The notes below the pieces were generated by a model. That model did not search any database. It saw only the letters and a list, made by a program, of their open reading frames with translations, and was not told the DNA's origin. Positions 23,015 through 36,349 of a DNA stretch of 64,000 nt are shown here, in pieces. This stretch comes from Brevibacterium sanguinis (GTDB lineage: Bacteria; Actinomycetota; Actinomycetes; Actinomycetales; Brevibacteriaceae): assembly GCF_003315415.1 (NCBI RefSeq), contig NZ_QNSB01000001.1:248001-312000 (forward strand), in the 5' to 3' direction. The position numbers and the translations under genes were made by a program. How positions within the stretch are numbered: position 1 is the stretch's first letter; the number at the start of each line of letters is the position of its first letter.

Positions 23015-23635
23015 ATGCGGCTCAATCGTCAGCGCCTGGTCCAGGCGGCCCTCGACCTCGTCGACGAGGAGGGGGCCGAGGCCCTGTCCATGCGCACTCT
23101 CGCCGCCCGCGTCGATCGTCAGGTGTCCTCGCTGTACAACCATGTCTCCGGACGCGGTGAGCTCATCGAGCTCTTGCGCGCCCGGATCGTCGAGGACATC
23201 GACGTCTCGCCGTTCCTGCCGGGCAGCGATCAGCCCTGGGACGAGGCCCTGCAGGCCTGGGCGCGGTCCTACCTGCGGTCGTTCGCAGCCCATCCCAACC
23301 TCATCCGGCTGCTCGCGACGACGTCGATCCGGGACCTGTCGACGTATCGGATGTACGACGTCGTCGTCGCCGGACTCGTCAGGGGAGGCTGGGCGGAGGA
23401 CGAGGTCGTCGCCCTCATGCGGATGGTCGAGGCGTTCGTCCTCGGTGCCGCTCTCGACATCGTCGCCCCCGCCGATCTGCTCGACCAGGAGTCGGTCGAT
23501 CCGACCTTCGGCTCGATCCGTGCGGCACTCGATCCGCGCCACTCAGATCGTTTCGGGGCGGAGGCGGCGTTCGACCTCGGACTCTCGTCCCTCATCGACG
23601 GGCTCAGGCTCCGATTGGACTCCGCCTCCGGTTGA
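23015..23635 (+). CDS. TetR-family transcriptional regulator (TetR_C-type)
   Basis: Repressor of 206 residues. The N-terminal helix-turn-helix reads LNRQRLVQAALDLVDEEGAEALSMRTLAARVDRQVSSLYNHV (residues 2-43), with the LYNHV end typical of the tetracycline-repressor subclass. The C-terminal domain binds an unknown ligand. The ATG at 23015 has GGAAGAGAAGG upstream. It faces the amidohydrolase and permease genes and two palindromes lie between, so it probably controls that transport/hydrolysis pair. The 3' end nearly abuts the convergent kup gene. Confidence 0.87.
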   Translation: MRLNRQRLVQAALDLVDEEGAEALSMRTLAARVDRQVSSLYNHVSGRGELIELLRARIVEDIDVSPFLPGSDQPWDEALQAWARSYLRSFAAHPNLIRLLATTSIRDLSTYRMYDVVVAGLVRGGWAEDEVVALMRMVEAFVLGAALDIVAPADLLDQESVDPTFGSIRAALDPRHSDRFGAEAAFDLGLSSLIDGLRLRLDSASG

Positions 23636-23650
23636 GGCGCGGATTCGCAC

Positions 23651-25594
23651 TCAGACCTGCATTTCCGAGCCGACGACGATCGTGCGATCCGCTGGAAGAT
23701 GGAAGGCTTCGATGCGATCGGTCTGGTTTCGTTCGAGGGAGAGGAAGAGAGCCTGTCGCCAATTGCGCAGACGTGGCGCATGCGCGGGAACGAGGGCGAG
23801 CACCGAGAGGAGATAGATCGCCGCGTCCAAGTCGAACTCGAGCTCTGGAAGTCTGCCGAGCGCCAAGGCGAGGTTGCCGGGAAGGTCGGGGCGATCGGCG
23901 TATCCGACGGTGATCGTCACTCGTGCGATGCCGGCCAGCTTCGCGCTCAGGCCCTCGACGTCAATGCGGTCCTCGGCCCGCACGTGAGGCACGTTCGCGT
24001 GATGGAGCCGAACGATGACGACATGCTCATGGAGGACGTGGAAGCTCCGCACGCATTGCACCATGGCCAACGGGGTGGTGTCGGGGCTGTGGTGGGGGAA
24101 GATCGCGACTCCGGGCCTGCGTCTGGGCGGCGCGCTCCGGATCGAGTCGAGGAACTCATCGAGCGCCCCTTCCGCCGCGCGCCGTTGCGCCCTCACTCGC
24201 TGATCACCGGCGCGCCACGTCGTCATCACGACGAAGACGCCGGCCGCAACGAGCAGCGGAAGCCAGCCGCCGACGACGAGCTTGGTGAGATTGGCGGCGA
24301 AGAGCAGAAGTTCGGCCGCCCCGATGATCGCCGCGTAGGCGACCACCGCCCAGGGGCGCCACCGCCACACAGTGGCCGCGAAGATGAGGAAGACGGCGGA
24401 CTCGAGGGCGAGTGTGCCGGTGACGGCGAGCCCATAGGCAGAGGCCAGCCGGGCCGACGAGGAGAAGACGACCACCAGTGCCATCACGCCCGCACACAGG
24501 ATCCAGTTGATGGCAGGGAGGTAGATCTGTCCCTCTTCCGATTGCGATGTGTGACTGACGCGCAGACGCGGGAGTAGGCCGAGGCGCATTGCCTGACGGG
24601 TGACGGCGAAGGCCCCGGAGATCACCGCCTGCGAGGCGATGATGGTGGCCACGGTGGCGAAGATGATGAGCGGGACGTGGAATGCGGGCGGAGCGAGGTG
24701 GAAGAACGGATCGCCTGCCGTGCCCGGTGCCGTGATGACACCGGCGCCCTGCCCGAGGTACACGATCACCAGGGCAGGCATCGCGATGAAGAGCCACGCG
24801 CGGCGAACGGCGGAAGCGCCGAAGTGACCCATGTCGGCGTAGAGCGCCTCCGCGCCGGTGACCGTCAGCACCACGGCGCCGAGCAGGACGAACGAGGCGA
24901 ACGGCAGTCGGATCATGAGCTCGAGTGCCCAGTGCGGTGACAGGCTGAGGAGGACCTGAGGGTGCTCGATGATCGCCGGGATGCCGAGCAGGGCCAACGT
25001 GAGGAACCAGGCCAGCATGATCGGGCCGAACGCGCGACTGACCCGGCCGGTGCCGAAGGGCTGGATGAGGAAGAGGGCTGCGAGCACGGCAGCGGAGACA
25101 GGCACCACGAGATGGCCGAGGGCGGGAGAGACCACGGACATCCCCTCGATCGCGCTCATCACGGAGATCGCAGGTGTGATGATGGAGTCGCCGTAGAAGA
25201 GTGCGGCGCCGAGCATGCCGAGGATCGTGATGAAGGCGAGCAGCCGACGGTCGGAGATCCGGCGGCGGAGCAGGGCGACCAGGGCGAGGATGCCGCCCTG
25301 CCCTCCGTTGTCGGCGCGTGTGACCACGACGACGTACTTGATCGTCACGATCAGCGTGAGAGTCCAGACCACCAAGGAGATCACGCCGTACACGTTCTCG
25401 AGCGACACGGTGACCGCGTTGTGCTCCATGCTCAACGCCGTTCGCATCGCGTAGAGGGGACTGGTACCGATGTCGCCGAAGACGACGCCGAGACTGCCGA
25501 CGGTCGACATCCACGCCCCTGACCGGTGGCGAGGGTGAGTCGAAGAATCACGGACCACTCGGGTTCCGGACGATCTGGGTGACCTTGAGTCCAT
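23651..25594 (-). CDS. kup: Kup-type potassium uptake protein
   Basis: Proton-coupled potassium importer of the KUP/HAK/KT family. The hallmark GSLGVVFGDIGTSPLYAMR is near the start, with IKYVVVVTRADNGGQGG and GALFYGDSIITPAISVMSAIEG (conserved GDSIITPAIS) and about twelve membrane helices, followed by a cytoplasmic C-terminal domain of about 170 residues beginning near SFHVLHEHVVIV. Start choice is uncertain: ATG 25594 gives 647 residues and follows CACACT by six bases; GTG 25558 (635) and ATG 25510 (619) are alternatives, the last beginning within the first helix. It is convergent with the TetR gene. Confidence 0.9.
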   Translation of the reverse strand: MDSRSPRSSGTRVVRDSSTHPRHRSGAWMSTVGSLGVVFGDIGTSPLYAMRTALSMEHNAVTVSLENVYGVISLVVWTLTLIVTIKYVVVVTRADNGGQGGILALVALLRRRISDRRLLAFITILGMLGAALFYGDSIITPAISVMSAIEGMSVVSPALGHLVVPVSAAVLAALFLIQPFGTGRVSRAFGPIMLAWFLTLALLGIPAIIEHPQVLLSLSPHWALELMIRLPFASFVLLGAVVLTVTGAEALYADMGHFGASAVRRAWLFIAMPALVIVYLGQGAGVITAPGTAGDPFFHLAPPAFHVPLIIFATVATIIASQAVISGAFAVTRQAMRLGLLPRLRVSHTSQSEEGQIYLPAINWILCAGVMALVVVFSSSARLASAYGLAVTGTLALESAVFLIFAATVWRWRPWAVVAYAAIIGAAELLLFAANLTKLVVGGWLPLLVAAGVFVVMTTWRAGDQRVRAQRRAAEGALDEFLDSIRSAPPRRRPGVAIFPHHSPDTTPLAMVQCVRSFHVLHEHVVIVRLHHANVPHVRAEDRIDVEGLSAKLAGIARVTITVGYADRPDLPGNLALALGRLPELEFDLDAAIYLLSVLALVPAHAPRLRNWRQALFLSLERNQTDRIEAFHLPADRTIVVGSEMQV

Positions 25595-25722
25595 GGGACC
25601 AGTGTGCGCGCTGCGGGCCGAATTGAGTGGAGAAGTTATCCGGAGGTGCACAAGGGTTCCGGGCGAACCGCGGAGGCCGGTGAGGCAGCGAACCGCGGCG
25701 TCTGATCCGGAAGCAACCTTGG

Positions 25723-25757
25723 TTGACACCGGGCCGTAAGCAATATAAGTTGACACC
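25723..25757 (+). promoter_or_regulatory. Leaderless promoter overlapped by TTGACACC direct repeats
   Basis: TTGACA (25723-25728), 17 bases, TAAGTT (25746-25751), six bases, ATG 25758: near-ideal sigma-70 promoter with a leaderless start. TTGACACC occurs at 25723-25730 and again at 25750-25757, so one copy covers the -35 and the other the -10 edge and start site. This is a likely autoregulatory operator pair for the encoded HTH protein. Confidence 0.8.
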
Positions 25758-26003
25758 ATGAATGCGACCCAGATCACCGACATCGCCGCGGACACGAGCG
25801 ACCCGCGAGCGGGCCTGCGCGCCATCGCCTCGCTGCGCGCCCTCATCGAACGCCTCGAGCTCGCCCAGGTGGAGGCGGGGCTGCGGGCGGGGATGAGCTG
25901 GCAGAACATCGCCGAGGTGCTCGGCGTCTCGCGCCAGGCCGTGCACAAGAAGTACGCGAAGAGGATCGATCCGACCATTCCCGTTCCGAGGAGACAGCGA
26001 TGA
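25758..26003 (+). CDS. Small helix-turn-helix protein
   Basis: An 81-residue cytoplasmic DNA-binding protein. A central helix (LRAIASLRALIERLELAQVEAG) leads to a clear helix-turn-helix: GMSWQNIAEVLGVSRQAVHKKYAKR (residues 44-68), then a short basic tail. Proteins of this shape, encoded just before a Clp-N domain gene, occur in many actinobacteria. The stop overlaps the next ATG (26000) as ATGA, so the pair is translationally coupled. The start follows the -10 box by six bases (leaderless). It is the obvious candidate to bind the TTGACACC repeats in its own promoter. Confidence 0.85.
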   Translation: MNATQITDIAADTSDPRAGLRAIASLRALIERLELAQVEAGLRAGMSWQNIAEVLGVSRQAVHKKYAKRIDPTIPVPRRQR

Positions 26004-26989
26004 GCAGATTCACGGATGCGGCGGCCACGTCGCACACACTGTCGGTCACGGCGATGGAGGAGGCCTCCCGGCTCGGGCAGCGCACCGCTGACATCGACCA
26101 CCTGTTCCTCGCGCTCGTCGTCAGCGAACAGATCGCCGGGCAGGTGCTGCGCAGCTTCGGGATCACGCTCGATGCGGCAAGGCGGGCGGTGGCAGCTCAG
26201 CATTCCGAGCAGCTGGCGTCATTGGGGATCAGCGCCGAGGTGCGCGAGGAGGGGCGGATCGTCTTCCATGAGACGGACGGCTACGAATGGGGCCCGCGTC
26301 CCCTGGAGATCATCAGACGGGCGGGTCAGGGTGGCAGGCGCGGCGATGCCGCCGCCGTCCTGCGGGATCTCGTGGTCGAGCCGAGCGGCATGATCGAAGC
26401 CGTGCTCGACCGCCTCGGCGTCGCACCGGCAGCCGTGATCCGGCGCCTCGACGAGGCTGAACGCTCGTCCTCGGCCTCGACGCGGTACGCATTCGAGCCG
26501 GGCACCCTGTCCGCTGTCTCCGAGAGCTTCGCTCCGGCGGATGTCGACCAGGTGTGGAGCCTGCTCAGCGACGTCTCGCGGCTGCCGGAGTGGGAGCCGA
26601 ACATCGGACGTGTCGAGGGCGGCGGCTCGCAGTTGCGCGTAGGCCAGACCCGGGAGGGGCGATCGCGCACGGAGCGTCCGGACGGCAAGGAGTCGAGAGT
26701 CGCCTCGAAGTACCGGGCCCAGCGGATCGAGCTCGTGGCCAGGGAGGATCGGCACCTCGTCGAGTGGAGATTCACCTACCCCGAGGCACCGAAGTCGAAT
26801 GCGCGACGCATCAGGATCGAGCTCGAGCCTGCGGCAGGTGGGACGACTCTGCGCATTCTGCTGGCCTGGGAGCGCACATCCGGCTCGAGCCGGCCGGTGC
26901 GCCGGTGGATTCTGCGACCATTCCACCGCTTCGTGCTCTGGCTGCAGCTCTCCCAGATCTCCGGGGGAATCAGCCGAGCGTTCCGCTGA
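26000..26989 (+). CDS. Clp-N domain / SRPBCC (START-like) fusion protein
   Basis: A 329-residue protein with two parts. Residues about 5-150 match the Clp protease N-terminal repeat domain (TAMEEASRLGQRTADIDHLFLALVVSE, then LRDLVVEPSGMIEAVLDRLGV), without any AAA+ ATPase. Residues about 170-310 look like a SRPBCC/polyketide-cyclase domain (ESFAPADVDQVWSLLSDVSRLPEWEPNIGRVE, WRFTYPEAPKSNARRIRIEL), a hydrophobic-ligand-binding fold. The fusion suggests that ligand sensing or membrane-lipid binding is joined to a Clp-like adaptor surface. Encoded with a coupled HTH protein, it may modulate that regulator. The exact role is unknown and no signal peptide is present. Confidence 0.75.
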   Translation: MSRFTDAAATSHTLSVTAMEEASRLGQRTADIDHLFLALVVSEQIAGQVLRSFGITLDAARRAVAAQHSEQLASLGISAEVREEGRIVFHETDGYEWGPRPLEIIRRAGQGGRRGDAAAVLRDLVVEPSGMIEAVLDRLGVAPAAVIRRLDEAERSSSASTRYAFEPGTLSAVSESFAPADVDQVWSLLSDVSRLPEWEPNIGRVEGGGSQLRVGQTREGRSRTERPDGKESRVASKYRAQRIELVAREDRHLVEWRFTYPEAPKSNARRIRIELEPAAGGTTLRILLAWERTSGSSRPVRRWILRPFHRFVLWLQLSQISGGISRAFR

Positions 26990-27023
26990 TGCCTCGCACT
27001 AGTGCGACATCGTAGAGGACAAT

Positions 27024-27059
27024 ATGTCCGGGCCGGTACTTCCGTGCTGACCCGGACAT
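27024..27059. terminator. Weak hairpin between the Clp-N gene and the BCCT gene
   Basis: ATGTCCGGG (27024-27032) pairs with CCCGGACAT (27051-27059), with an 18-base loop, between convergent genes. The rest of the 202-base gap shows no gene. Confidence 0.45.
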
Positions 27060-27191
27060 CGATCTCGTCGAGCTGCCGGGGAACCGGTTGTACGACGACA
27101 CCCCGGCATTTGGGCCACAGTGCCGTTCCGGTGGCCGCAGCAGTGCCTGTCGACAGACGCGGTTCGAGGTGCGCTGCTCGAGCGCACGTAC

Positions 27192-28877
27192 TCAGCTGTT
27201 CGGCGTCGGCGCCTCGTGCAGATCGGCGCGACGCACGACTCGCAGCTCCTCGAAGTCGTGGTCTTCGCGCAGGGTCTTCACGATGCTGACACCGAGGAGT
27301 GCCACGATGATGGCGAAGGGCAGGGCCGAGAGCATTGCCGCTTGCTGCAGGGCGGCGAGCCCACCGGCGAAGAACAGCACGATCGCGGTCGTCCCGGTCA
27401 GTCCGCCCCAGACGGTGAGCACCCAGCGGCTCGGCTCGAGTGTGCCACGAGAGGTGAGCATGCTGAGCACGAAGGTGTTCGCGTCGGCACCCGAGACGAA
27501 GTAGAGCACCACGAGAACGATCGCGATGACCGACGTGAGGCTGACCAGGGGCAGATGATCCAGGGTTTCGAAGAATGCCGAGTTGATGTTCTCCGCTGTG
27601 GCCTGTCCGATCTCTCCACCGGTGTTCATGTCGATGTTGATCGCGGTTCCGCCCATGACGGTGAACCAGGCGAAGAAGACGAGGCTCGGCACGCCCATGA
27701 CACCGAGGACGAACTGGCGAACAGTGCGGCCACGGGAGATTTTGGCCAGGAACACTCCGACGAAGGCACCCCAGCTCAGCCACCAGGCCATCATGAAGTA
27801 GGTCCAGTACTGGTACCACTCGACGTCTCCGGAGAGCAGCGGAGTGAGGAGGCTCGTCGTGAAGAAATCGTTGATGTAGAGGCCGGTCGACCGGAAGAAG
27901 AGGTTTCCGATGAAGGCCGTCGGACCCATCACCAGGACGAACAGTCCGAGGAATATCGACAGGACGGCAGTCGTCTGGCTGAGGATCTTGATCCCGCGGT
28001 TCACCCCGGTGAGTGCCGAGAGGGTGAACACCACGGTGATGCCGAGGATGATGATGATCTGCACGAAGAGCTCGTTCGGAATGCCGAAGACGCGGTTGAG
28101 TCCCTCGGAGATCTGAGACGCGCCCAGGCCCAGGGAGGTCGTGGTGCCGAACAAGGTCGCGACAACTGCCATGATGTCGACGACCTGACCGACCCAGCCG
28201 TCCATCACCTTCCCGAAGAGCGGCCGCAGCATCGGCGAGATCAGACCGGTGTTTCCGCGCTTGTGGGTCGAATAGGCGATCGCGAGTCCGAACACGCCGA
28301 AGACCGCCCACGCGTGCGGTCCCCAGTCGAAGTAGGAGAACTGGAGTGCCCGCACCGCCGCCTGGGTGGTGCCGGGCTCAGCCAGCCCATGGGGCGGGGC
28401 CGCGAAATGGGAGATCGGCTCGGCCACGCCGTAGCTGATGAGCCCGATCCCCATGACAGCGGAGAGGATCATGGCCAGCCACGCCCAGGTGCTGTACTCC
28501 GGCCGATCGTCCTCGGCGCCCAGGCGGATCCTGCCGAACCGGCTGAAGCCGAGATACACGAGGAGGCCGATGCACCCGAGGGTGACGACGAGGTACGACC
28601 AGCCCAGGCTTCCGGAGACCCAGTTCATGGCGGAGGTCATCGTGGCGGCCATCGACTCCGGAGCGATCGCACCCCAAGCGGTGAAGGCGATGACGCCGAG
28701 GACCGAGATCCAGAAGACCCTGCCGGGTCGATGCCGCAGGGCGTAGGCGCGCGCCATCGCCGGTGATGGACCGGAGTCAGGAACCAATCCCGTTCCGGGC
28801 AGGTCCGGGCGGCTGTGTGCACTGGCATCCTCGAGCGAGGCATTGCCCTCGGACGTCCGTCTGGGTTGATCGTTCAC
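27192..28877 (-). CDS. BCCT-family transporter (betaine/carnitine/choline type)
   Basis: Membrane importer of quaternary ammonium or betaine-like compounds, 561 residues with about twelve helices. The family signature helix with its tryptophan cluster is present (WTYFMMAWWLSWGAFVGVFL), as are TAWGAIAPESM, the FDWGPHAWAVFG segment of helix 4 and LVYLGFSRFG. The start is GTG 28877, preceded by GGAG six bases upstream; a GTG four codons earlier is possible. It lies 58 bases after the flavin-reductase fusion gene on the same strand and is presumably in one operon with it, divergent from the catabolic operon. That makes it the likely importer of the pathway's substrate, hinting at a zwitterionic N-methylated compound. 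Osmoprotectant uptake is the alternative. Confidence 0.85.
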   Translation of the reverse strand: MNDQPRRTSEGNASLEDASAHSRPDLPGTGLVPDSGPSPAMARAYALRHRPGRVFWISVLGVIAFTAWGAIAPESMAATMTSAMNWVSGSLGWSYLVVTLGCIGLLVYLGFSRFGRIRLGAEDDRPEYSTWAWLAMILSAVMGIGLISYGVAEPISHFAAPPHGLAEPGTTQAAVRALQFSYFDWGPHAWAVFGVFGLAIAYSTHKRGNTGLISPMLRPLFGKVMDGWVGQVVDIMAVVATLFGTTTSLGLGASQISEGLNRVFGIPNELFVQIIIILGITVVFTLSALTGVNRGIKILSQTTAVLSIFLGLFVLVMGPTAFIGNLFFRSTGLYINDFFTTSLLTPLLSGDVEWYQYWTYFMMAWWLSWGAFVGVFLAKISRGRTVRQFVLGVMGVPSLVFFAWFTVMGGTAINIDMNTGGEIGQATAENINSAFFETLDHLPLVSLTSVIAIVLVVLYFVSGADANTFVLSMLTSRGTLEPSRWVLTVWGGLTGTTAIVLFFAGGLAALQQAAMLSALPFAIIVALLGVSIVKTLREDHDFEELRVVRRADLHEAPTPNS

Positions 28878-28935
28878 GGCGATCTCCACTTCATTGTGAA
28901 TCGGGTTGGGGTTCGTGATGTCGGGGTTCGCGGTT

Positions 28936-29913
28936 TCAGTCGAGAGGCCGAAGGTCTTCGCTGTCGAAGAACTTTCCGGCCTTGTAGATCATCGGCTCGT
29001 CCTCGGACGCTTCCGCGCTGCAGACCCGACCGATGAACACCGTGTGCGTGAGCGCCTGGAAGCGTTCCTTGATCTCGACTTCGATCGAGGCGGCAGAGCC
29101 GTCGATGAGGGGCGAACCGTGCTGTCCCGAGTGCCAGTCGAGATCCGCGAACTTGTCGGCAGCCTTCGACGCGAACGTGCCGATGGTTCCCCGCTGGTTC
29201 CTGCTCATGATGTTGATCCCCATGTGCGTCGAACGGAACAGTGCGGGGTAGGTCGACGAGGTCTTCTGCACGCAGACGAGGACCAGGGGAGGATCGAGCG
29301 AGACAGAGTTGTACGAGTTGACCGCGAGACCGCGGGGCCGCCCGTCCTCATCGAGGGTGGTCACCACTGTGACGCCGGTGATGAACTGACGATTGAAGGC
29401 CTTGAGTGCCTCGGTGGACGGGGTGCCGGAGAGGTCGTCGGTGAGCACCTCGCCCTCGTACGTTTCGAAGGCCGACGACAGGGACTTGAGGCCGAGGTCG
29501 GCGAGGAGCGCGGACGCATCCCACGTGACCTCTTCCCGGCAGATGAGGGGTCCATCGAATGTGATCAGGTTGGAACCGTGGGTCGTCACCGACTGACCGG
29601 TCGGCGGCACGTCGTTGAGCGGCTGGGTGAACGTGCCGGTCGAATGCCAGTAGATCGACCCCTGATCGCCCTCGATGAGGATGCGGTCGATCGTCGTGGT
29701 CAGGTCCGGGAAGGCTGCCCGGATCTCGCTGATCTCGTTCTTCGCCGCCGAGATGTCCATCTGTCGACCCGAGTTGGAGGAGACGCGGGCGTAGTCGTCG
29801 GTGACCAGAGCGTCGAGGGCGTCGGTCTCGCCGAGGTCCCACGCCTGCTGCCAAGCGTCGACGATGGTCTTCTTGATGTGGTCCTGTGGGCTGATTCGCG
29901 ATTTCTGTTGCAT
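28936..29913 (-). CDS. NTF2/SnoaL-like domain fused to an FMN reductase
   Basis: A 325-residue fusion. Residues about 10-145 resemble the NTF2-like SnoaL/ester-cyclase fold (HIKKTIVDAWQQAWDLGE, IRAAFPDLTTTIDRILIEGD, VTTHGSNLITFDG). Residues about 165-320 are a flavin reductase of two-component monooxygenases (FNRQFITGVTVVTT, PRGLAVNSYNSVSLDPPLVLV, IMSRNQRG, HTVFIGRV). The reductase would supply reduced FMN to the luciferase-like oxygenase encoded at 34443. The start ATG 29913 is seven bases after TATGCT, with TTGACG 18 bases farther up, so the mRNA is leaderless. The fusion of an NTF2 domain to the reductase is unusual and might tie flavin supply to a pathway intermediate. Confidence 0.82.
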   Translation of the reverse strand: MQQKSRISPQDHIKKTIVDAWQQAWDLGETDALDALVTDDYARVSSNSGRQMDISAAKNEISEIRAAFPDLTTTIDRILIEGDQGSIYWHSTGTFTQPLNDVPPTGQSVTTHGSNLITFDGPLICREEVTWDASALLADLGLKSLSSAFETYEGEVLTDDLSGTPSTEALKAFNRQFITGVTVVTTLDEDGRPRGLAVNSYNSVSLDPPLVLVCVQKTSSTYPALFRSTHMGINIMSRNQRGTIGTFASKAADKFADLDWHSGQHGSPLIDGSAASIEVEIKERFQALTHTVFIGRVCSAEASEDEPMIYKAGKFFDSEDLRPLD

Positions 29914-29920
29914 ACCAGAG

Positions 29921-29950
29921 AGCATAGAAGCGTGTTCTGGGATACGTCAA
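29921..29950 (-). promoter_or_regulatory. Promoter of the flavin reductase-BCCT operon
   Basis: Minus strand: TTGACG (29950-29945), 18-base spacer, TATGCT (29926-29921), then seven bases to ATG 29913. CCAGA and TCTGG half-sites flank the -10 (29915-29919 and 29935-29939). Confidence 0.75.
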
Positions 29951-29993
29951 GAGGTGCAGATGATCCCGGAAAATCAAGCGTTGAGAGAATCTG

Positions 29994-30036
29994 TTGACAG
30001 ATCTTGATGCATGCAAGTAATCTTCTTGTATGCAAG
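29994..30036 (+). promoter_or_regulatory. gntR operon promoter and CTTG/CAAG operators
   Basis: TTGACA (29994-29999), 18 bases, TAATCT (30018-30023), six bases, ATG 30030: strong leaderless promoter. CTTGATGCATGCAAG (30003-30017) fills most of the spacer and CTTGTATGCAAG (30025-30036) covers the start codon; both are CTTG/CAAG palindromes, suiting repression by the encoded GntR protein. Confidence 0.8.
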
Positions 30037-30710
30037 AAAACTCTCGAATCGCGGGGAAAACCGGCGAGTCGTTCCTTGACCAGGTCCGGGCCCGCATCCT
30101 CAGCGACGGCTATGCGCCAGGGGACATGATCCCCGAAACCGCGCTCGCCGAATCCTTCGGCGTCAGCCGAACTCCGATCCGCGAGGTGTTCAAGCAGCTG
30201 CAGCTGGAGGGGTTGGTCGAGATCCGGCCCCGAGTCGGCACCTTCGTCCGTCAGCCCACCCGCCGTGAGATCATCGAGCTCTTCCAGCTCAAGGAGTCCC
30301 TCGAAGGCCTCGCCGCAGGACTCATGGCCAGACGGGGGGACATCCCCGAACTCGGCGACCTCGCGACGAATGTCGAAGACTCGATCTCCGCGGCGAAACT
30401 GGGCGACACCGAAGGCTATGCCGTGCTGGTCCACGAGTTCCATTGGACGCTCATGCGGGGCGCGGACAACGACAAGCTCTCCGAAGCCTACGAACGGCTC
30501 ATGCATCAGCTGGCCTACCACCGCATCGTCGTCCAGGCGGTCAGTCGGCCGGGACGCCTCGTCCGCTCGGCTCAGGAGCACGAGGCGGTGTTCACTGCGA
30601 TCCGGGAGAAGGACTGGTTCGGGGCAGAGGCAGCCATGCGTGAGCACGTCAACGCCTCGAGCAGGGCCGCACTGTCCACCCGACCCGCCACCGAGTCCTC
30701 GGAGAAGTGA
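30030..30710 (+). CDS. GntR-family regulator (FadR/FCD subfamily)
   Basis: A 226-residue regulator with an N-terminal winged helix (FLDQVRARILSDGYAPGDMIPETALAESFGVSRTPIREVFKQLQLEGLVEIRPRVGTFVR, residues about 15-75) and a C-terminal helical FCD ligand domain (ELFQLKESLEGLAAGLMARRG, LVHEFHWTLMRGADN, QEHEAVFTAIREKDWFGAEAAMREHV) with the metal-site histidines typical of FCD proteins. It is the first gene of the catabolic operon; a leaderless promoter and two CTTG/CAAG palindromes precede it, so autoregulation with release by a pathway intermediate is likely. The next gene starts four bases after the stop. Confidence 0.9.
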   Translation: MQENSRIAGKTGESFLDQVRARILSDGYAPGDMIPETALAESFGVSRTPIREVFKQLQLEGLVEIRPRVGTFVRQPTRREIIELFQLKESLEGLAAGLMARRGDIPELGDLATNVEDSISAAKLGDTEGYAVLVHEFHWTLMRGADNDKLSEAYERLMHQLAYHRIVVQAVSRPGRLVRSAQEHEAVFTAIREKDWFGAEAAMREHVNASSRAALSTRPATESSEK

Positions 30711-30714
30711 TCAG

Positions 30715-31389
30715 ATGACCACAGCAGCAGGAACACAGTCCACCGACCACGAGCTGAATCAGCGGCCGAGCAGCTTCGAAGAGCTTGCCCGTCGCCTCGG
30801 CGTTCGCACCGTCACGGTGCATGTCGACGAGATCCTCAGCGAGTCCGGCGAATCGCTGGACCGTCCGCTGAGACAGGCAGCCGCAGTGGCGGTCCTCGCC
30901 AATCCCTGGCAGGGCACCGGCCCCGACCACGACCTGAGCCCCGCGGCCGTCGAGATCGCCCCGGTTCTCGCCAAGGTGCTCACCGATCGACTGCTCGCCG
31001 CATTGGGCCCCGCCGGCGAGATCGAGGCATTCGGGAAGGCCGCCCTGGTCGGCACGAACGGGGAGCTCGAGCACGCGGGAGCGCTCATCCACACGCCGTA
31101 CTTCGGCAACATCATGAGGGAGATGCTCGAAGGGTCGTCCGTTCTCTGCTTCGCAGACGGCCGGACCGGCCCCTCTGCAACCGTCCGGGTGCCCATGTGG
31201 CACAAGACCCACGCGACCTCCCGAGATCACTATCAGAGCCTCGAAGTCCACACCCCCGACGCTCCGCGCGCCGATGAGATCTGCGTGATCGCAGCGGCAT
31301 CGACCGGACCGCGGCCGTTCCCCCGAATCGGAGACCGGTCGACGGACGGGACAGTCACCACGGAAATCCTGAAAGGACTCATCAAATGA
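30715..31389 (+). CDS. AA_synth / DUF1185 family protein, copy 1
   Basis: A 224-residue protein of the family annotated as amino acid synthesis protein (PF06684), whose biochemical function I do not know. Recognised by the shared pattern HVDEILSESGE, AAVAVLANPWQG, EAFGKAALVGTNGELEHAGALIHTPYFG and DAPRADEICVIAAASTGPRP. It has about 35 extra N-terminal residues relative to copy 2. GGAGAAG overlaps the gntR stop and serves as its ribosome binding site. The stop overlaps the next ATG as ATGA. Being the first two enzymatic genes of the operon, the pair probably forms a heteromer or processes an early intermediate. It could be a hydrolase or a lyase. Confidence 0.8.
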   Translation: MTTAAGTQSTDHELNQRPSSFEELARRLGVRTVTVHVDEILSESGESLDRPLRQAAAVAVLANPWQGTGPDHDLSPAAVEIAPVLAKVLTDRLLAALGPAGEIEAFGKAALVGTNGELEHAGALIHTPYFGNIMREMLEGSSVLCFADGRTGPSATVRVPMWHKTHATSRDHYQSLEVHTPDAPRADEICVIAAASTGPRPFPRIGDRSTDGTVTTEILKGLIK

Positions 31390-31937
31390 ACGTTCGCAAG
31401 ATCACGACAGTCGTCGAAGAAGTGCTCCGCGAAGGCGGCAGGGACACGGATCCCGTCATCACCGTGGCCGCAGTGGCCGCCGTGATCGAGAATCCCTGGC
31501 ACGGACAGGACTTCGTCGAGGACCTCGGGCCCGGCATCGACGCGACAGCGAGCGACGTCGGAGCACTCCTGGCCCCGCGCGTGATGGAAGCGCTCGGCGG
31601 AAGCCTGGAGGCCTATGGCAAGGCGGCCATCGTCGGCGTCGACGGCGAGATCGAACACGGGTCGGCACTCATCCACACACTGAAATTCGGCAATCATTTC
31701 CGCGATGCCGCCTCGGCGAGCACCCTGCTCCCGGCGGTGGAGAAGCGCGGGCCGGCAGGAGTGGTCTTCGACATCCCGCTCAAGCACTACACCGATGCCA
31801 CCATTCGCTCGCATCACCAGACCTTCGAATGGCGCATCTCCGATGCGCCGCACGCCGACGAGATCGTCATCGCCCTGGCCGGAGCCACGGGAGGCCGGCC
31901 ACAGCAGCGCCTGGCGCCGCTGTCAGCCGACCAGTAA
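31386..31937 (+). CDS. AA_synth / DUF1185 family protein, copy 2
   Basis: A 183-residue paralogue of the preceding gene: VRKITTVVEEVLREGGR, VAAVIENPWHGQDFVEDL, EAYGKAAIVGVDGEIEHGSALIHTLKFGNHF, VVFDIPLKHYTDA, RSHHQTFEWRISDAPHADEIVIALAGATGGRP. The match to copy 1 covers the whole fold, showing a tandem duplication and divergence. Its ATG overlaps the copy 1 stop, so equal production of the two is expected, in keeping with a mixed oligomer. No signal peptide or membrane segment. The pathway step is unknown. Confidence 0.82.
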   Translation: MNVRKITTVVEEVLREGGRDTDPVITVAAVAAVIENPWHGQDFVEDLGPGIDATASDVGALLAPRVMEALGGSLEAYGKAAIVGVDGEIEHGSALIHTLKFGNHFRDAASASTLLPAVEKRGPAGVVFDIPLKHYTDATIRSHHQTFEWRISDAPHADEIVIALAGATGGRPQQRLAPLSADQ

Positions 31938-31951
31938 GGCAGCGGCCGACG

Positions 31952-32734
31952 ATGACTGCACAGGAGCAACTGTCGCCGGCGGTCGTGCTGCTGCACGGGG
32001 TGGGTCTGGACCGCACGGTGTGGGCACGGGTGGAGGCGCTGCTCGACAGGGAGGTCGTCGCGCTCGATCTGCCGGGGCACGGCCGGCAGCCCCGGCTGAC
32101 ACGGACGACCTCATTGACTGAGATGGCCGAGGATGTGATCGCGCGCCTTCCGGCCGGACCCGTGCACCTCGTGGGCTTCTCGCTCGGGTCGTTGATCGCT
32201 CAGCAAATCGCCGCCGACCTGCCCGGCCGAGTGCGCAGCCTCGGTTGCGTGAGTTCGGTGTGCGCTCGCACCGAGGCGGAGACCGCAGCGGTGCGCTCCC
32301 GTCTCGAGAAGGCCCGGGCGAACTTCGGCGAGAGCATGGAAATCGCACTCGACCGCTGGTTTCCCGACGACGACGAGGGCAGGACGCAGGGCAGGCGTGC
32401 AGCCGAATCCGCGGCGGCTCTCCGGGACGAGACGCGTCCGGTCCTCCTCGCCAACGACATCGACTCCTATCTCTTCGCCTATGCCGTCTTCGCCCAGGGC
32501 GACCGGGAGATCGAACCACGGTTGAGGGAGATAGCGGTGCCGACTCTGGCGATCACGGGAGAGCTCGACCCGGGGTCGACTCCGGAGATGAGCCGACGCC
32601 TCGGCGAGCGGATCCCTCAGTCACGAGTCGTGATCGTCGATGGAGCGAGGCACATGCTCCCCGTGACCCACCCCGAAACTCTGACCCACCACCTCGACAA
32701 CCTCTTCGACGAGGCAGAAAGGCGTCAATCATGA
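31952..32734 (+). CDS. Alpha/beta-fold hydrolase
   Basis: A 260-residue alpha/beta hydrolase. VVLLHGVGLDRTVWARV gives the oxyanion loop (residues 11-27), LDLPGHGRQPR follows strand 4, and GFSLGS contains the nucleophile Ser77. ITGELDPGSTPE carries the acid and VDGARHMLPVTHPE the catalytic histidine. It resembles the 3-oxoadipate enol-lactonase/RutD group. In the operon it would hydrolyse an amide, ester or lactone produced after ring cleavage. The ATG at 31952 is chosen because the upstream in-frame extension reads as unrelated Arg-rich sequence; the stop overlaps the next ATG as ATGA. Confidence 0.87.
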   Translation: MTAQEQLSPAVVLLHGVGLDRTVWARVEALLDREVVALDLPGHGRQPRLTRTTSLTEMAEDVIARLPAGPVHLVGFSLGSLIAQQIAADLPGRVRSLGCVSSVCARTEAETAAVRSRLEKARANFGESMEIALDRWFPDDDEGRTQGRRAAESAAALRDETRPVLLANDIDSYLFAYAVFAQGDREIEPRLREIAVPTLAITGELDPGSTPEMSRRLGERIPQSRVVIVDGARHMLPVTHPETLTHHLDNLFDEAERRQS

Positions 32735-34212
32735 CCGATCGGCTCGATCACTTCATCGCCGGGGACCACTCCCCGCCCGCGAACGGCGAATACCTGACCA
32801 GCACCAACCCGGCCACACTCGAAACCCTCTACGAGTTCGCGCGGGGCAGCGCGGACGACGTCGCCAAAGCCGTCGACTCCGCACGCCGGACATTCGAGAC
32901 TCGGGAATGGCGGCGCACCACACCCACCCAGCGCGGGCACCTGCTGCGCCGACTCGGTGATCTCATCGGAGAGAACGCCGATGAACTCGCCACCCTCGAG
33001 AGCCAGGACAACGGCAAACTGCTGCGGGAGATGAAGGGCCAGCTGCAGGGACTGCCCGAGTACCTCTACTATTACGGCGGTCTGGCCGACAAGGTGCAGG
33101 GATCCCAGATCCCGACCAATTCCCCCGAGGTCATCAACTTCACGCAGCGCGAACCGCTCGGCGTCGTCGGGGCGATCACCCCGTGGAACTCCCCGCTGAC
33201 TCTGACGATGTCGAAGCTGGCCCCTGCTCTGGCCGCAGGGAACACCCTGGTCATCAAGCCCAGCGAGTACACATCGCGAACAGTGCTGCGGGTCGCCGAA
33301 CTCGCCTACGAAGCCGGCTTCCCCGCCGGTGCTGTCAACGTGGTGACAGGGCTCGGCGCCGAGGCGGGTCAGTCTCTGGTCGATTCGCCTCAGATCGCGA
33401 AGATCTCCTTCACCGGCTCCACTCGCACAGGGGCGGCCATCGCTCGCGCGGTCGCCCCGAGGTTCATCGGATGCACCCTCGAACTTGGAGGGAAGAGCCC
33501 GAACATCGTGTTCGAGGATGCCGACGTGTCGAATGCCGCGATGGGCGTGATCGCCGGGATCTTCGCGGCAGCAGGACAGACTTGCATCGCGGGAAGCCGT
33601 GTGTTCGCGCACCGGCGCATCTATGACGAGCTGCTCGAGAAGGTCACCGAACGAGCGTCGACGATCGTCATCGGCGACCCCATGGCCCCGGAGACCGAAC
33701 TCGGGCCACTGGCCTTCGCCAATCAGCTCGACAAAGTGGAGTCCTACGTCCACCTCGGCGTGGACGAGGGCGGGCGGCTCGCCTACGGAGGACGCCGCCC
33801 CGATGTGGGCCTGCCGGGGTACTTCTTCGAGCCCACGGTCCTCACCGACACCCACAACGAGATGCGGATCTGTCAGGAGGAAATCTTCGGGCCCGTCGCG
33901 GCGATCATGCCCTTCGACACCGAGGACGAGGTGCTGCGCTTGGCCAATGACACGGAGTACGGTCTGGCCGCAGGAGTCTGGACGTCGAACCTGCAGCGTG
34001 CGATGCGGATGTCGCAGCGCTTGGAGGCCGGAACGATCTGGACCAACATGTACCGGGCGATGTCCCCGATGTCGCCGCGCCAGGGGTTCAAGAACTCCGG
34101 AGTCGGCATCGAGCACGGCTTCGAGTCAATGCACGAGTACACGAGGCTGAAGAGCCTGTGGATCAACACGGACGAAGGGCCGCTCGCCGATCCCTTCGTG
34201 CTGGGGAGGTGA
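32731..34212 (+). CDS. NAD(P)-dependent aldehyde dehydrogenase
   Basis: A 493-residue aldehyde dehydrogenase. Key residues seen are PWNSPL (Asn153, transition-state stabilising), FTGSTRTG (nucleotide binding), LELGGKSPN (general base Glu251), AGQTCIAGSR (catalytic Cys285), and QEEIFGPV. It begins four bases within the hydrolase gene (ATGA). Its most likely job is to oxidise an aldehyde from ring opening, such as a semialdehyde, to an acid that enters central metabolism. The exact substrate cannot be read from sequence. Confidence 0.93.
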   Translation: MTDRLDHFIAGDHSPPANGEYLTSTNPATLETLYEFARGSADDVAKAVDSARRTFETREWRRTTPTQRGHLLRRLGDLIGENADELATLESQDNGKLLREMKGQLQGLPEYLYYYGGLADKVQGSQIPTNSPEVINFTQREPLGVVGAITPWNSPLTLTMSKLAPALAAGNTLVIKPSEYTSRTVLRVAELAYEAGFPAGAVNVVTGLGAEAGQSLVDSPQIAKISFTGSTRTGAAIARAVAPRFIGCTLELGGKSPNIVFEDADVSNAAMGVIAGIFAAAGQTCIAGSRVFAHRRIYDELLEKVTERASTIVIGDPMAPETELGPLAFANQLDKVESYVHLGVDEGGRLAYGGRRPDVGLPGYFFEPTVLTDTHNEMRICQEEIFGPVAAIMPFDTEDEVLRLANDTEYGLAAGVWTSNLQRAMRMSQRLEAGTIWTNMYRAMSPMSPRQGFKNSGVGIEHGFESMHEYTRLKSLWINTDEGPLADPFVLGR

Positions 34213-34219
34213 GGGCGCG

Positions 34220-34417
34220 ATGCCGCTGATCGACATCTCCATCGCCCAGGGGCGAAGCCCCGTACAGCTGCGGGCACTCATGGCAGGAGTGCATCGAGTG
34301 GCCGAGGAAACGACCGGAGCCGCTGCGGAGAACATCACGGTGATCGTCCGCGAAGTGGAGAAGGAACTCTGGGCGAGAACCGACACGACCATCGCCGAAC
34401 GCGAAAGCACCAACTGA
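34220..34417 (+). CDS. 4-oxalocrotonate tautomerase family protein
   Basis: A 65-residue tautomerase homologue. The residue after the initiator Met is Pro (PLIDISIAQGRSP), the catalytic N-terminal Pro1 of the family, and Arg11 in mature numbering is present. The C-terminal half has ITVIVREVEKELWA, the usual position of an active-site tryptophan. The family catalyses enol-keto isomerisation or hydrations of unsaturated acids. It starts seven bases after the aldehyde dehydrogenase stop. It may isomerise an unsaturated intermediate in this pathway. Confidence 0.88.
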   Translation: MPLIDISIAQGRSPVQLRALMAGVHRVAEETTGAAAENITVIVREVEKELWARTDTTIAERESTN

Positions 34418-34442
34418 GGAAACTCACGACGGAGGGAGCACT

Positions 34443-35489
34443 ATGCGCTTTTCACTTTTCATCCATATGGAACGCTGGGACGACTCGATCAGCCACGAGC
34501 AGCATTGGCAGAACCTGGTCGAGCTGGTTCAGCTCGCCGAAGCCGGAGGGTTCTCAACGGTGTGGATCGGTGAGCATCATTCCATGGAGTACACCGTTTC
34601 GCCCAGCCCGATGCCGCAGCTGGCGTACCTTGCGGCGAAGACCTCGACGATCCGACTCGGGTCCGGGACGATCATCGCTCCGTTCTGGCACCCCGTGCGC
34701 GCGGCAGGAGAGATCGCACTCCTCGACGTCCTCAGCGGCGGTCGCGCCGAGGTGGGCATCGCCCGCGGGGCATACCAGTTCGAATTCGATCGGCTGATGG
34801 GCGGAATGCCTGCCGCGGACGGCGGCGAGTATCTTCGTGAGCTGGTTCCCGCGGTGCAGAAGCTGCTGCAGGGCGACTACGAGCATGAGGGCAAGCACTG
34901 GCAGTTCCCCGTCTCGACCGCAGTGCCGAAGCCGATTCAGGCTCCGACTCCACCGATCTGGCTGGCCGCGCGGAGCCCGGAGACGCACGATTTCGCTGTC
35001 GCCAACGGCTGCAACGTCCAGGTGACTCCGCTGATGAAGGACGACCGCGAGGTCGAGGACCTGATGAACAAGTTCACGACTGCGGTCGACGCGCATCCGG
35101 AAGTGGAGAAGCGTCCGGAGATCATGGTGCTGCGTCACACCTATCTCCATTCCCCGGACGACCCCGAGGGGTGGAAGGTCGGAGCCGCTGGGATCAACAG
35201 GTTCTACCGCACCTTCTCATCCTGGGCGTTCGGGAAGAAGGCTCCGGTCAACGGCTTCCTCGACCCGACTCCGGAGGAGAAGTTCGCCGACCGCCCCGAG
35301 TTCGAGCTCGAATCGCTGCACAGGAACGCCATGATCGGCACCCCTGCCGAGGTCACCGCACGGATCAGAAGCTACGAGCAGATGGGCTACGACGAATACA
35401 GCTTCTGGTCGGACAACTCGCTGAGCTTCGAGGAGAAGAAGGCGTCCCTGCAGCTGTTCATCGACGAAGTGGTGCCGAACTTCCGCTGA
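34443..35489 (+). CDS. Luciferase-like (LLM) flavin-dependent monooxygenase
   Basis: A 348-residue TIM-barrel monooxygenase that uses reduced FMN from a separate reductase. Typical LLM parts are SLFIHMERWDD at strand 1, AEAGGFSTVWIGEHHSMEY (strand 2-3), RLGSGTIIAPFWHPVRAAGEIALLDVLSGGRAEVGIARG (phosphate-binding region) and PTPPIWLAARSPETHDFAVANG. GGAGGGAG is well placed before ATG 34443. It ends the catabolic operon; the partner reductase is encoded divergently at 28936-29913. The most likely role is oxygenative cleavage of the starting ring or oxidation of an N- or C-substituted substrate. It is the oxygenase of a two-component system; a RutA-type pyrimidine oxygenase is one distant relative. 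Confidence 0.88.
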   Translation: MRFSLFIHMERWDDSISHEQHWQNLVELVQLAEAGGFSTVWIGEHHSMEYTVSPSPMPQLAYLAAKTSTIRLGSGTIIAPFWHPVRAAGEIALLDVLSGGRAEVGIARGAYQFEFDRLMGGMPAADGGEYLRELVPAVQKLLQGDYEHEGKHWQFPVSTAVPKPIQAPTPPIWLAARSPETHDFAVANGCNVQVTPLMKDDREVEDLMNKFTTAVDAHPEVEKRPEIMVLRHTYLHSPDDPEGWKVGAAGINRFYRTFSSWAFGKKAPVNGFLDPTPEEKFADRPEFELESLHRNAMIGTPAEVTARIRSYEQMGYDEYSFWSDNSLSFEEKKASLQLFIDEVVPNFR

Positions 35490-35517
35490 GGCGAGATGCT
35501 GACCGGGCATGCTCGTC

Positions 35518-36021
35518 TCAGCGCCGCACCGGGACGAGAGTGACGTCGCTGAGGACGCCGGAATCCGCGGTCGCAGTCATGAACGTGCAGACCGGTTGGC
35601 GACGCCGGTCGGTGGGAGAGCCGGGATTGAGCAACCGCATGCCGTTCGGAGTCGTCGTGTCCCAGGGGATGTGGCTGTGACCGAACACGAGCACGTCGAC
35701 GTCGTCGAACCGGGCGTCCATGCGCTTCTCACGTCCCTGAGCAGCACCGGTCTCATGGATGACGGCGAACCGGATCCCCTCGATCTCCACCTGGGCGACC
35801 TCGGGCAGCCGGGCTCGCAGTTCGGGCCCGTCGTTGTTGCCGTGGACGCCGATCAGGCGGTGGGAGCGGGTCTCGAGCGCATCGAGAGTCGCCTCGTCGA
35901 CCCAGTCGCCGGCGTGGATGACGACGTCCGCCGCCGCGATCGCTGAACAGACGGGGTCGGGCAATGCCTTCGCCCGCTTCGGCAGGTGAGTGTCGGCGAG
36001 GATCACGAGAGAGGTCGGCAT
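35518..36021 (-). CDS. Metallophosphoesterase, YfcE/MJ0936-type
   Basis: A 167-residue calcineurin-like phosphoesterase with the motif series LADTHLPK (D-x-H), HAGDWVD (G-D), HGNNDG (G-N-N-D), VIHETG and FGHSHIP (G-H-S-H). Small proteins of this type hydrolyse phosphodiesters such as bis-p-nitrophenylphosphate in vitro; the natural substrate is unknown. ATG 36021 gives a normal start; an ATG four codons upstream (36033) is possible and neither has a clear ribosome binding site. It converges on the catabolic operon and is unrelated to it by function. Confidence 0.87.
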   Translation of the reverse strand: MPTSLVILADTHLPKRAKALPDPVCSAIAAADVVIHAGDWVDEATLDALETRSHRLIGVHGNNDGPELRARLPEVAQVEIEGIRFAVIHETGAAQGREKRMDARFDDVDVLVFGHSHIPWDTTTPNGMRLLNPGSPTDRRRQPVCTFMTATADSGVLSDVTLVPVRR

Positions 36022-36267
36022 GTGGCCATTCAACCCGATCGGGACGGCTCGGCGGGCATCCGACCGGGCGGTCGGCTTCGGCAGGCAGGACCCAGGGGAG
36101 GGGAGTCACGGTCCGACCCCAACAGTCACGCCGACACAGTGATCGCGGCCGAAGAATGCACAGGAGCTGCAGAAGTGGCGGACATCTGCACTTCTCAGCA
36201 GCGCCAGCCGCACCGGCTGTGAGGTGCCGCGACATCGTAGGAACGATGTCGCGGCACATCACATTCG

Positions 36268-36349
<82 letters not shown>

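Follow-up and report, generated by a model that had tools for sequence, protein, structure and literature searches.

Introduction

Trigonelline (N-methylnicotinate) is a plant betaine and a relative of vitamin B3; its degradation by the tgn pathway was reportedly described by Perchat et al. 2018. A tgn operon is annotated on an Acinetobacter plasmid (NZ_CP094644), with genes in the order GntR regulator, AA_synth protein, alpha/beta hydrolase, tgnA, tgnB, tgnC, cytosine permease, hypothetical protein and succinate semialdehyde dehydrogenase (SSADH). In A. baylyi, TgnF, a homologue of the DUF1185 (AA_synth, PF06684) proteins, stimulates the TgnE-dependent oxidation of succinate semialdehyde, as stated in an excerpt of PMC7913881 (citing Perchat 2018), according to which a comparable effect could not be demonstrated for that study's own DUF1185 protein. 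Here we describe a block of nine genes at positions 27192-35489 of a 64,000-nucleotide stretch of the Brevibacterium sanguinis genome (assembly GCF_003315415.1, contig NZ_QNSB01000001.1, positions 248,001 to 312,000), hereafter the window, which by comparison of its genes is probably the actinobacterial form of the trigonelline degradation system. A literature search that left the primary tgn paper and a 2026 homarine paper outside it turned up no account of such an operon in Actinobacteria, though one may be in print; generic gene names alone were present in the one annotated actinobacterial record examined.

Homology to the tgn operon

Searches among plasmid-encoded proteins yielded 343 records with a relative of the LLM flavin-dependent oxygenase of the window, and among the 60 listed, one (the Acinetobacter plasmid) was labelled tgnB, the oxygenase component of the flavin-dependent trigonelline monooxygenase. 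The window LLM is 49.6% identical to this annotated TgnB over 347 amino acids, and the aldehyde dehydrogenase (ALDH) is 42.5% identical to TgnC over 492 amino acids, scoring 402 bits against TgnC versus 303 against the SSADH of the same plasmid. The window encodes two AA_synth proteins, AA_synth 1 and AA_synth 2, which share 43% and 42% identity with the single AA_synth of the plasmid; the reductase domain is 41% identical to the annotated TgnA over 140 amino acids, the remaining parts of both proteins being different; the GntR regulators are 41% identical over 61 amino acids, and the hydrolases over 241 amino acids to the lower degree discussed below, the plasmid bearing no gene named tgnD. 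By these comparisons the block brings together a TgnB-type LLM, a TgnA-type reductase alongside it, a TgnC-type ALDH and a TgnF/DUF1185 protein. An SSADH candidate is encoded elsewhere in the same genome (594 bits, under the model cut-off of 646; 47% identical to the plasmid SSADH). As SSADH is also unannotated in some tgn-type stretches (e.g. L107 and L110), its presence within the cluster was not taken as a strict mark of a tgn system. Homology also revealed the same gene set on S. meliloti pSymA and in Leisingera, with oxygenases that share 72-73% identity with the annotated TgnB, and annotation revealed it on plasmids of Burkholderia, Ruegeria, Pantoea, Mesorhizobium and Rhizobium. The LLM tree places the clade of Actinobacteria, which includes Pseudomonas, beside the proteobacterial TgnB clade.

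On this evidence the block very probably belongs to the tgn-type family. LLM proteins form a broad superfamily, which leaves room for another role altogether, for instance in the oxidation of an alkanesulfonate, a sulfone or an aldehyde; we regard this as highly unlikely, however, given NCBIfam scores far under cut-off (35 versus 518 for alkanesulfonate, 41 versus 383 for SfnG) and a whole gene set that parallels tgn. An earlier note on this DNA had proposed a candidate new catabolic system following the logic of trigonelline breakdown. Direct comparison with the annotated tgn operon strongly supports the trigonelline-type logic, and "new" proved too strong a word for what appears to be a variant of a known system. 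Every family named in that note, in two divergent, tightly packed operons, was seen by Pfam as an intact open reading frame (ORF), and the NTF2-type domain that it placed on the reductase is present, matching Pfam SnoaL at 73 bits.

Recurrence of the gene set in Actinobacteria

A scan for the LLM gave 243 loci, of which the best 80 were named (60 actinobacterial and 20 Pseudomonas). Genes were counted in the 50 of the 60 actinobacterial loci that span at least 17 kb, ten shorter ones being excluded, and a match was defined as at least 30% identity (60% for ALDH) no more than 9.5 kb from the LLM. ALDH was present in all 50 loci, AA_synth 1, AA_synth 2, hydrolase, reductase and SnoaL in 49 each, GntR in 48, the tautomerase in 41, the BCCT-family importer in 40, an NCS1 permease in 10 and an isochorismatase-like gene in 9. 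Since the same set recurs in loci anchored on the LLM only, the grouping of these genes goes beyond chance. In 11 Mycobacterium/Streptomyces loci, two ORFs lying side by side match the SnoaL half and the reductase half of the fused window protein; being separate there yet adjoining, the halves suggest that the fusion is a lineage trait and that SnoaL is linked to the same pathway. A proline at position 2 and Gly-Arg at positions 11-12 were found in 52/52 tautomerase relatives, so that the N-terminal proline expected of a 4-oxalocrotonate tautomerase (4-OT) is present at all 52 loci. The window tautomerase falls below the NCBIfam cut-offs (53.5 versus 55; 37.5 versus 56.9) and thus has no named equivalog; NCBIfam equivalog cut-offs were likewise reached by neither the hydrolase, the ALDH, the LLM nor the reductase.

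The LLM occurs in 9/37 genomes of the same genus (that of the window counted) and in 3/246 genomes of a phylum sample, in which AA_synth was found in 18/246. The system is accessory. In a congener (G005), the matches to window positions 23608 and 35520 lie ~185 bp apart; the intervening ~11.9 kb (23609-35519), and with them the catabolic block and a gene for a KUP-type K+ transporter, are absent. Riboflavin kinase and NUDIX annotations, perhaps concerned with flavin supply, lie near the Arthrobacter plasmid cluster (L103:1881-2830).

Mixed gene sets in Pseudomonas and the choice of substrate

The LLMs of the 20 Pseudomonas loci are 69-70% identical to that of the window and are accompanied by a reductase in 19 loci and an NCS1 permease in 14; matches to AA_synth, the window-type hydrolase, SnoaL or the tautomerase were found in none of them. 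AA_synth was present elsewhere in the genome in 8/8 tested of those 20 genomes. An AA_synth-hydrolase-ALDH-reductase-GntR operon was found in five fetched Pseudomonas genomes (L126, L127, L129, L130 and L132), where the surrounding 20 kb gave no match to the LLM, and in four other Pseudomonas genomes the LLM adjoins the AA_synth operon. Across 119 Pseudomonas genomes, AA_synth was present in 64/64 with an LLM match versus 8/55 without (Fisher p 3.5e-25, kinship uncorrected), in a survey that included two genomes chosen earlier for their LLM (G059 and G062), a 43% homologue only (G110), an LLM in two pieces (G145) and a partial match (G112). The two genes lie <1 kb apart in 13 Pseudomonas genomes, and further apart or on other contigs in the remainder. 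The Pseudomonas LLM falls inside the actinobacterial-type clade; in quick trees, the Pseudomonas ALDH groups with TgnC (SH-aLRT 91) and the Pseudomonas AA_synth with proteobacterial AA_synth proteins, those of tgn and of a third operon type (see below) together (SH-aLRT 94). Because an actinobacterial-type LLM thus appears to serve proteobacterial downstream enzymes, the same product, the same ring-opened intermediate, may be ascribed to both oxygenase types and, with moderate tree support, we infer that they form it from the same substrate; this mixed gene set is the strongest argument for a shared substrate that the analysis gave. The deep actinobacterial LLM of G392/L140, considered as a reciprocal swap, was set aside owing to its unsettled tree position (86/64), and a Pseudomonas neighbour first taken as a porin was dropped, its sequence looking like a polyamine-type binding protein.

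Trigonelline itself is accordingly the most economical choice of main substrate, and one that the sequences lead us to favour somewhat over a different compound because the oxygenases appear interchangeable, although this is no proof. The "related but different substrate" of the earlier note found no support and seems the less likely reading, AA_synth belonging to tgn and Pseudomonas pairing its LLM of actinobacterial type with downstream enzymes of the other kind, a TgnC-like ALDH and a proteobacterial AA_synth. Of the differences from tgn that the note had counted, AA_synth is itself no departure, because it is present in the annotated tgn operon and TgnF is, in the excerpt cited above, a DUF1185 homologue. 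Its duplication is real, as are the tautomerase, the SnoaL fusion and the BCCT importer, but helpers and transport need not alter the substrate.

Several findings weigh against trigonelline and the tgn assignment. The two Pseudomonas groupings remain under 95 in SH-aLRT; the Pseudomonas, tgn and actinobacterial hydrolases form three separate tree groups with an unsettled branching order, and the window hydrolase is only 29% identical to its tgn counterpart; the LLM tree carries a long-branch warning on the TgnB and third-type rows. No SSADH (TgnE) lies within the block 27192-35489, and counterparts of the tautomerase and SnoaL are missing from the plasmid tgn operon. Among the actinobacterial loci, L098 keeps just LLM and ALDH, and L095 is without GntR and both transporters; G041 holds an isolated LLM match that begins at residue 38, AA_synth being absent from the genome. 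G392 has GntR, both AA_synth proteins, hydrolase, ALDH and a 51% LLM, but the 19 kb read there gave no match to the tautomerase, SnoaL, reductase or BCCT; as this core shows no helper match, the helper proteins are not universal. Finally, an oxygenase identity of 50% leaves the substrate unfixed, and at 17 LLM positions the actinobacterial group and the TgnB group each conserve a residue of their own, three of these positions falling within the stretch 38-52 around the EHH motif.

These last two points are also what might be expected if the block followed the same pathway logic on another N-alkylpyridinium, such as N-methylisonicotinate (4-carboxy-1-methylpyridinium) or N-methylpyridinium, in which case that isomer would require the tautomerase and SnoaL; the retention of these extra isomerases (41/50 and 49/50 loci) would fit as well. 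Against this stands Pseudomonas, where the same LLM type and a TgnC-like ALDH occur and a tautomerase or SnoaL match was found in 0/20 LLM loci, so that we consider another N-alkylpyridinium a possible but rather unlikely substrate. The LLM alignment took in 63 rows from Actinobacteria, 20 from Pseudomonas and 9 of TgnB type, one relic row being excluded. Over all three groups 76 positions are invariant, of which 54 are so in the third type too, and 109 positions are conserved and equal between the actinobacterial and TgnB groups. Majority identity was 0.53 around the EHH motif versus 0.54 overall, and 0.77 in the stretches 70-82 and 170-182; the stretches compared were picked from luciferase residues, and a clear verdict on the pocket was not obtained. 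The comparison of LLM positions would thus neither prove nor exclude the same substrate as that of TgnB.

Import of the substrate

The BCCT importer scores 529 bits against the NCBIfam glycine-betaine equivalog, below its cut-off of 650, and passes that of the general BCCT subfamily (442 versus 408). Among solved structures it scores highest against a trimethylamine transporter and BetP, and an AWWxxW stretch is retained in the alignment to the former. From these similarities the importer probably carries a betaine substrate. Homarine (N-methylpicolinate) is a betaine that such an importer could presumably carry, but its catabolism by this block is very improbable: excerpts of PMC8269262 argue that TgnAB action on it is unlikely on steric grounds and report poorer growth of Ruegeria pomeroyi on homarine than on trigonelline, and an excerpt of PMC13390433 ties homarine catabolism to N-methylglutamate dehydrogenase (Mgd), which by Pfam is not among the nine block genes, the remaining genome not having been searched for it.

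At least one of BCCT and NCS1 is found in 48/50 loci. Within 9.5 kb of the LLM, 38 loci have BCCT alone, 8 NCS1 alone, 2 both and 2 neither (p 3.5e-6, kinship uncorrected); over whole loci the corresponding numbers are 37, 6, 5 and 2 (p 6.6e-4, kinship uncorrected), with p 0.008 once BCCT matches <45% are removed. Strict mutual exclusion of the two carriers was rejected, the whole-locus counts weakening the contrast to a loose tendency that is not strong evidence. In L046, L037, L055, L064, L077, L078 and others, an NCS1 permease and an isochorismatase-family gene replace or join BCCT, and over whole loci the isochorismatase-like gene is present in 9/11 loci with NCS1 and 0/39 without. In some hosts, this module is possibly an entry route for 1-methylnicotinamide. 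That breakdown might mainly start from 1-methylnicotinamide or another amide and pass through trigonelline is suggested by the same association but seems improbable: the window block has BCCT and neither NCS1 nor an isochorismatase-like gene, and the isochorismatase-like hydrolase is weakly nicotinamidase-like (32.6 bits versus a cut-off of 174; biuret amidohydrolase, 34.1 versus 370) and finds no PDB match at E 1e-6. A substrate acceptable to carriers of both kinds, for betaines and for planar heterocycles, would fit a heterocyclic betaine.

Paired AA_synth proteins

AA_synth 1 and AA_synth 2 each form a clade of their own (16 rows each, SH-aLRT 100 and 97, respectively), which argues that the duplication is old and that both copies have been kept. 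The two paralogues and the proteobacterial rows share several invariant Lys, Glu, His and Arg positions. AA_synth 2 is related to the solved proteins 2qtp (E 1.6e-35) and 3byq (E 4.1e-24), which belong to the same PF06684/DUF1185 family as both Brevibacterium proteins; an excerpt of PMC2954203 describes the solved DUF1185 proteins as hexamers of one protein, whereas Brevibacterium encodes two adjoining paralogues, known here from their genes. Tentatively, a hetero-oligomeric AA_synth/TgnF pair, together with the tautomerase and SnoaL, might hydrolyse the ring-opened enamine and decarboxylate it to succinate semialdehyde in a rebuilt trigonelline route. If true, this helper role would give PF06684 a general enzymatic function.

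Adjoining AA_synth pairs or single copies also occur in other settings. In Sulfitobacter (L112:8414-9576), a pair lies beside a molybdopterin oxidoreductase and a gene annotated as 6-hydroxynicotinate reductase, a label that Pfam and NCBIfam matches do not confirm. In Burkholderia pyrrocinia (L115:7974-12984), AA_synth has an alpha/beta hydrolase, an FAD hydroxylase and an SSADH as neighbours, perhaps another ring-opening pathway.

Gene arrangement and candidate operator

The ORF list of the window and Pfam place nine intact genes in two divergent operons [Table 1]. Neighbours on the plus strand overlap by 4 bp or are spaced by 4-25 bp, the minus-strand pair is spaced by 46 bp and the divergent gap measures 104 bp. 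Motifs that we take to be catalytic are intact in the hydrolase (GFSLG, Ser77) and in the ALDH (GQTC, Cys285, and ELGG, Glu251). The genome measures 3.77 Mb, with the window in contig 1, and the nearest named LLM relatives are from Brevibacterium. A tRNA-Leu gene is located downstream of the block at 36267-36349, and an ORF at 26000-26989 joins a Clp N-terminal domain to a polyketide-cyclase-type domain.

Table 1 Genes and candidate operator of the Brevibacterium sanguinis block (window coordinates)
Feature	Position	Strand	Basis
BCCT-family importer	27192..28889	-	Pfam BCCT, 565 bits
SnoaL + flavin reductase fusion	28936..29925	-	Pfam SnoaL (residues 20-144), Flavin_Reduct (179-320)
Candidate operator TTGTATGCAA	30026..30035	no strand	Overlaps GntR start codon
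GntR/FCD regulator	30030..30710	+	Pfam GntR and FCD
AA_synth paralogue 1 (TgnF-like)	30715..31389	+	Pfam, 185 bits
AA_synth paralogue 2 (TgnF-like)	31386..31937	+	Pfam, 201 bits
Alpha/beta hydrolase, presumed TgnD position (N-formyl/enamide hydrolysis)	31952..32734	+	Pfam Abhydrolase_1
Aldehyde dehydrogenase, TgnC-like	32731..34212	+	Pfam Aldedh, 561 bits
4-OT-like tautomerase, added isomerase	34220..34417	+	Pfam Tautomerase, 51.5 bits
LLM flavin-dependent oxygenase, TgnB-like, proposed pyridinium ring opener	34443..35489	+	Pfam Bac_luciferase, 202 bits

The motif TTGNNNNCAA was found in 43/56 upstream regions versus a mean of 3.2 over 200 base shuffles, which did not preserve dinucleotides, the shortened region of the window being scored as a miss. 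The window carries TTGTATGCAA as a candidate GntR operator, accompanied by a half-site-like ATGCAAG at 30011; some loci (e.g. L021, L040 and L050) have a second, upstream copy of the operator-like motif. Part of the conservation of the motif may stem from the coding start (Met-Gln).

Proposed pathway and implications

In the proposed route, BCCT would import the betaine, and the reductase half of the SnoaL fusion would provide reduced FMN. With reduced FMN and O2, the LLM would cleave the N-methylpyridinium ring next to the nitrogen, without prior hydroxylation, to an N-methylformamido-methylene aldehyde/lactol, which the ALDH would convert to N-methylformamido-methylene succinate. The alpha/beta hydrolase would then take off formate, and the AA_synth pair, perhaps with the tautomerase and the SnoaL domain, would accelerate the collapse of the enamine to methylamine, CO2 and succinate semialdehyde, the latter being oxidised to succinate by a dehydrogenase encoded outside the block. 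GntR would govern both operons through TTGTATGCAA-like sites.

Recognition of an actinobacterial form would make the trait readable in Brevibacterium, Arthrobacter, Streptomyces, Mycobacterium and others. It also raises the questions of what role AA_synth, labelled as amino acid synthesis, plays and why there are two copies, of whether BCCT and NCS1 have one betaine as their common substrate, and of whether the oxygenase was swapped in Pseudomonas.

Comparison with known systems

Related arrangements may be set beside the Brevibacterium block. The third operon type (L108, L109, L111 and L131) comprises the same enzyme families (AA_synth, reductase, ALDH, LLM and hydrolase), but its LLM is 43-45% identical to that of the window; on the three plasmids with this type, the LLM forms a separate clade and an amino-acid-type ABC importer is encoded. 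The split set of Pseudomonas (L088/L126 and L133-L136) has an LLM 66-70% identical to that of the window and, like the window, AA_synth, hydrolase, ALDH, reductase and GntR in the genome; unlike in the window, the operon holds a single AA_synth, and LLM, reductase and NCS1 permease often lie away from the rest. In Mesorhizobium WSM1497 (L113:7205-9004), a 1800-bp gene annotated as alpha/beta hydrolase occupies the place of hydrolase and reductase, an apparent fusion.

The Acinetobacter tgn operon and the Brevibacterium block have six homologous components in common, namely GntR, AA_synth, alpha/beta hydrolase, flavin reductase, LLM and ALDH, grouped in each. Where Acinetobacter has one AA_synth, Brevibacterium has two. 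The Brevibacterium reductase is fused to SnoaL, whereas TgnA is a reductase with a C-terminal extension without a Pfam match; a NUDIX-like reading of this extension, made by eye, was abandoned, as Pfam gives the reductase domain alone. The Brevibacterium block further has a tautomerase and BCCT, whereas the Acinetobacter operon is without the tautomerase and has a cytosine-type permease instead of BCCT, and it differs from that operon in its divergent layout and in lacking an SSADH. The features that mark the variant are thus the AA_synth pair, the tautomerase, the SnoaL domain, import by BCCT or NCS1 and a recurrent operator-like motif.

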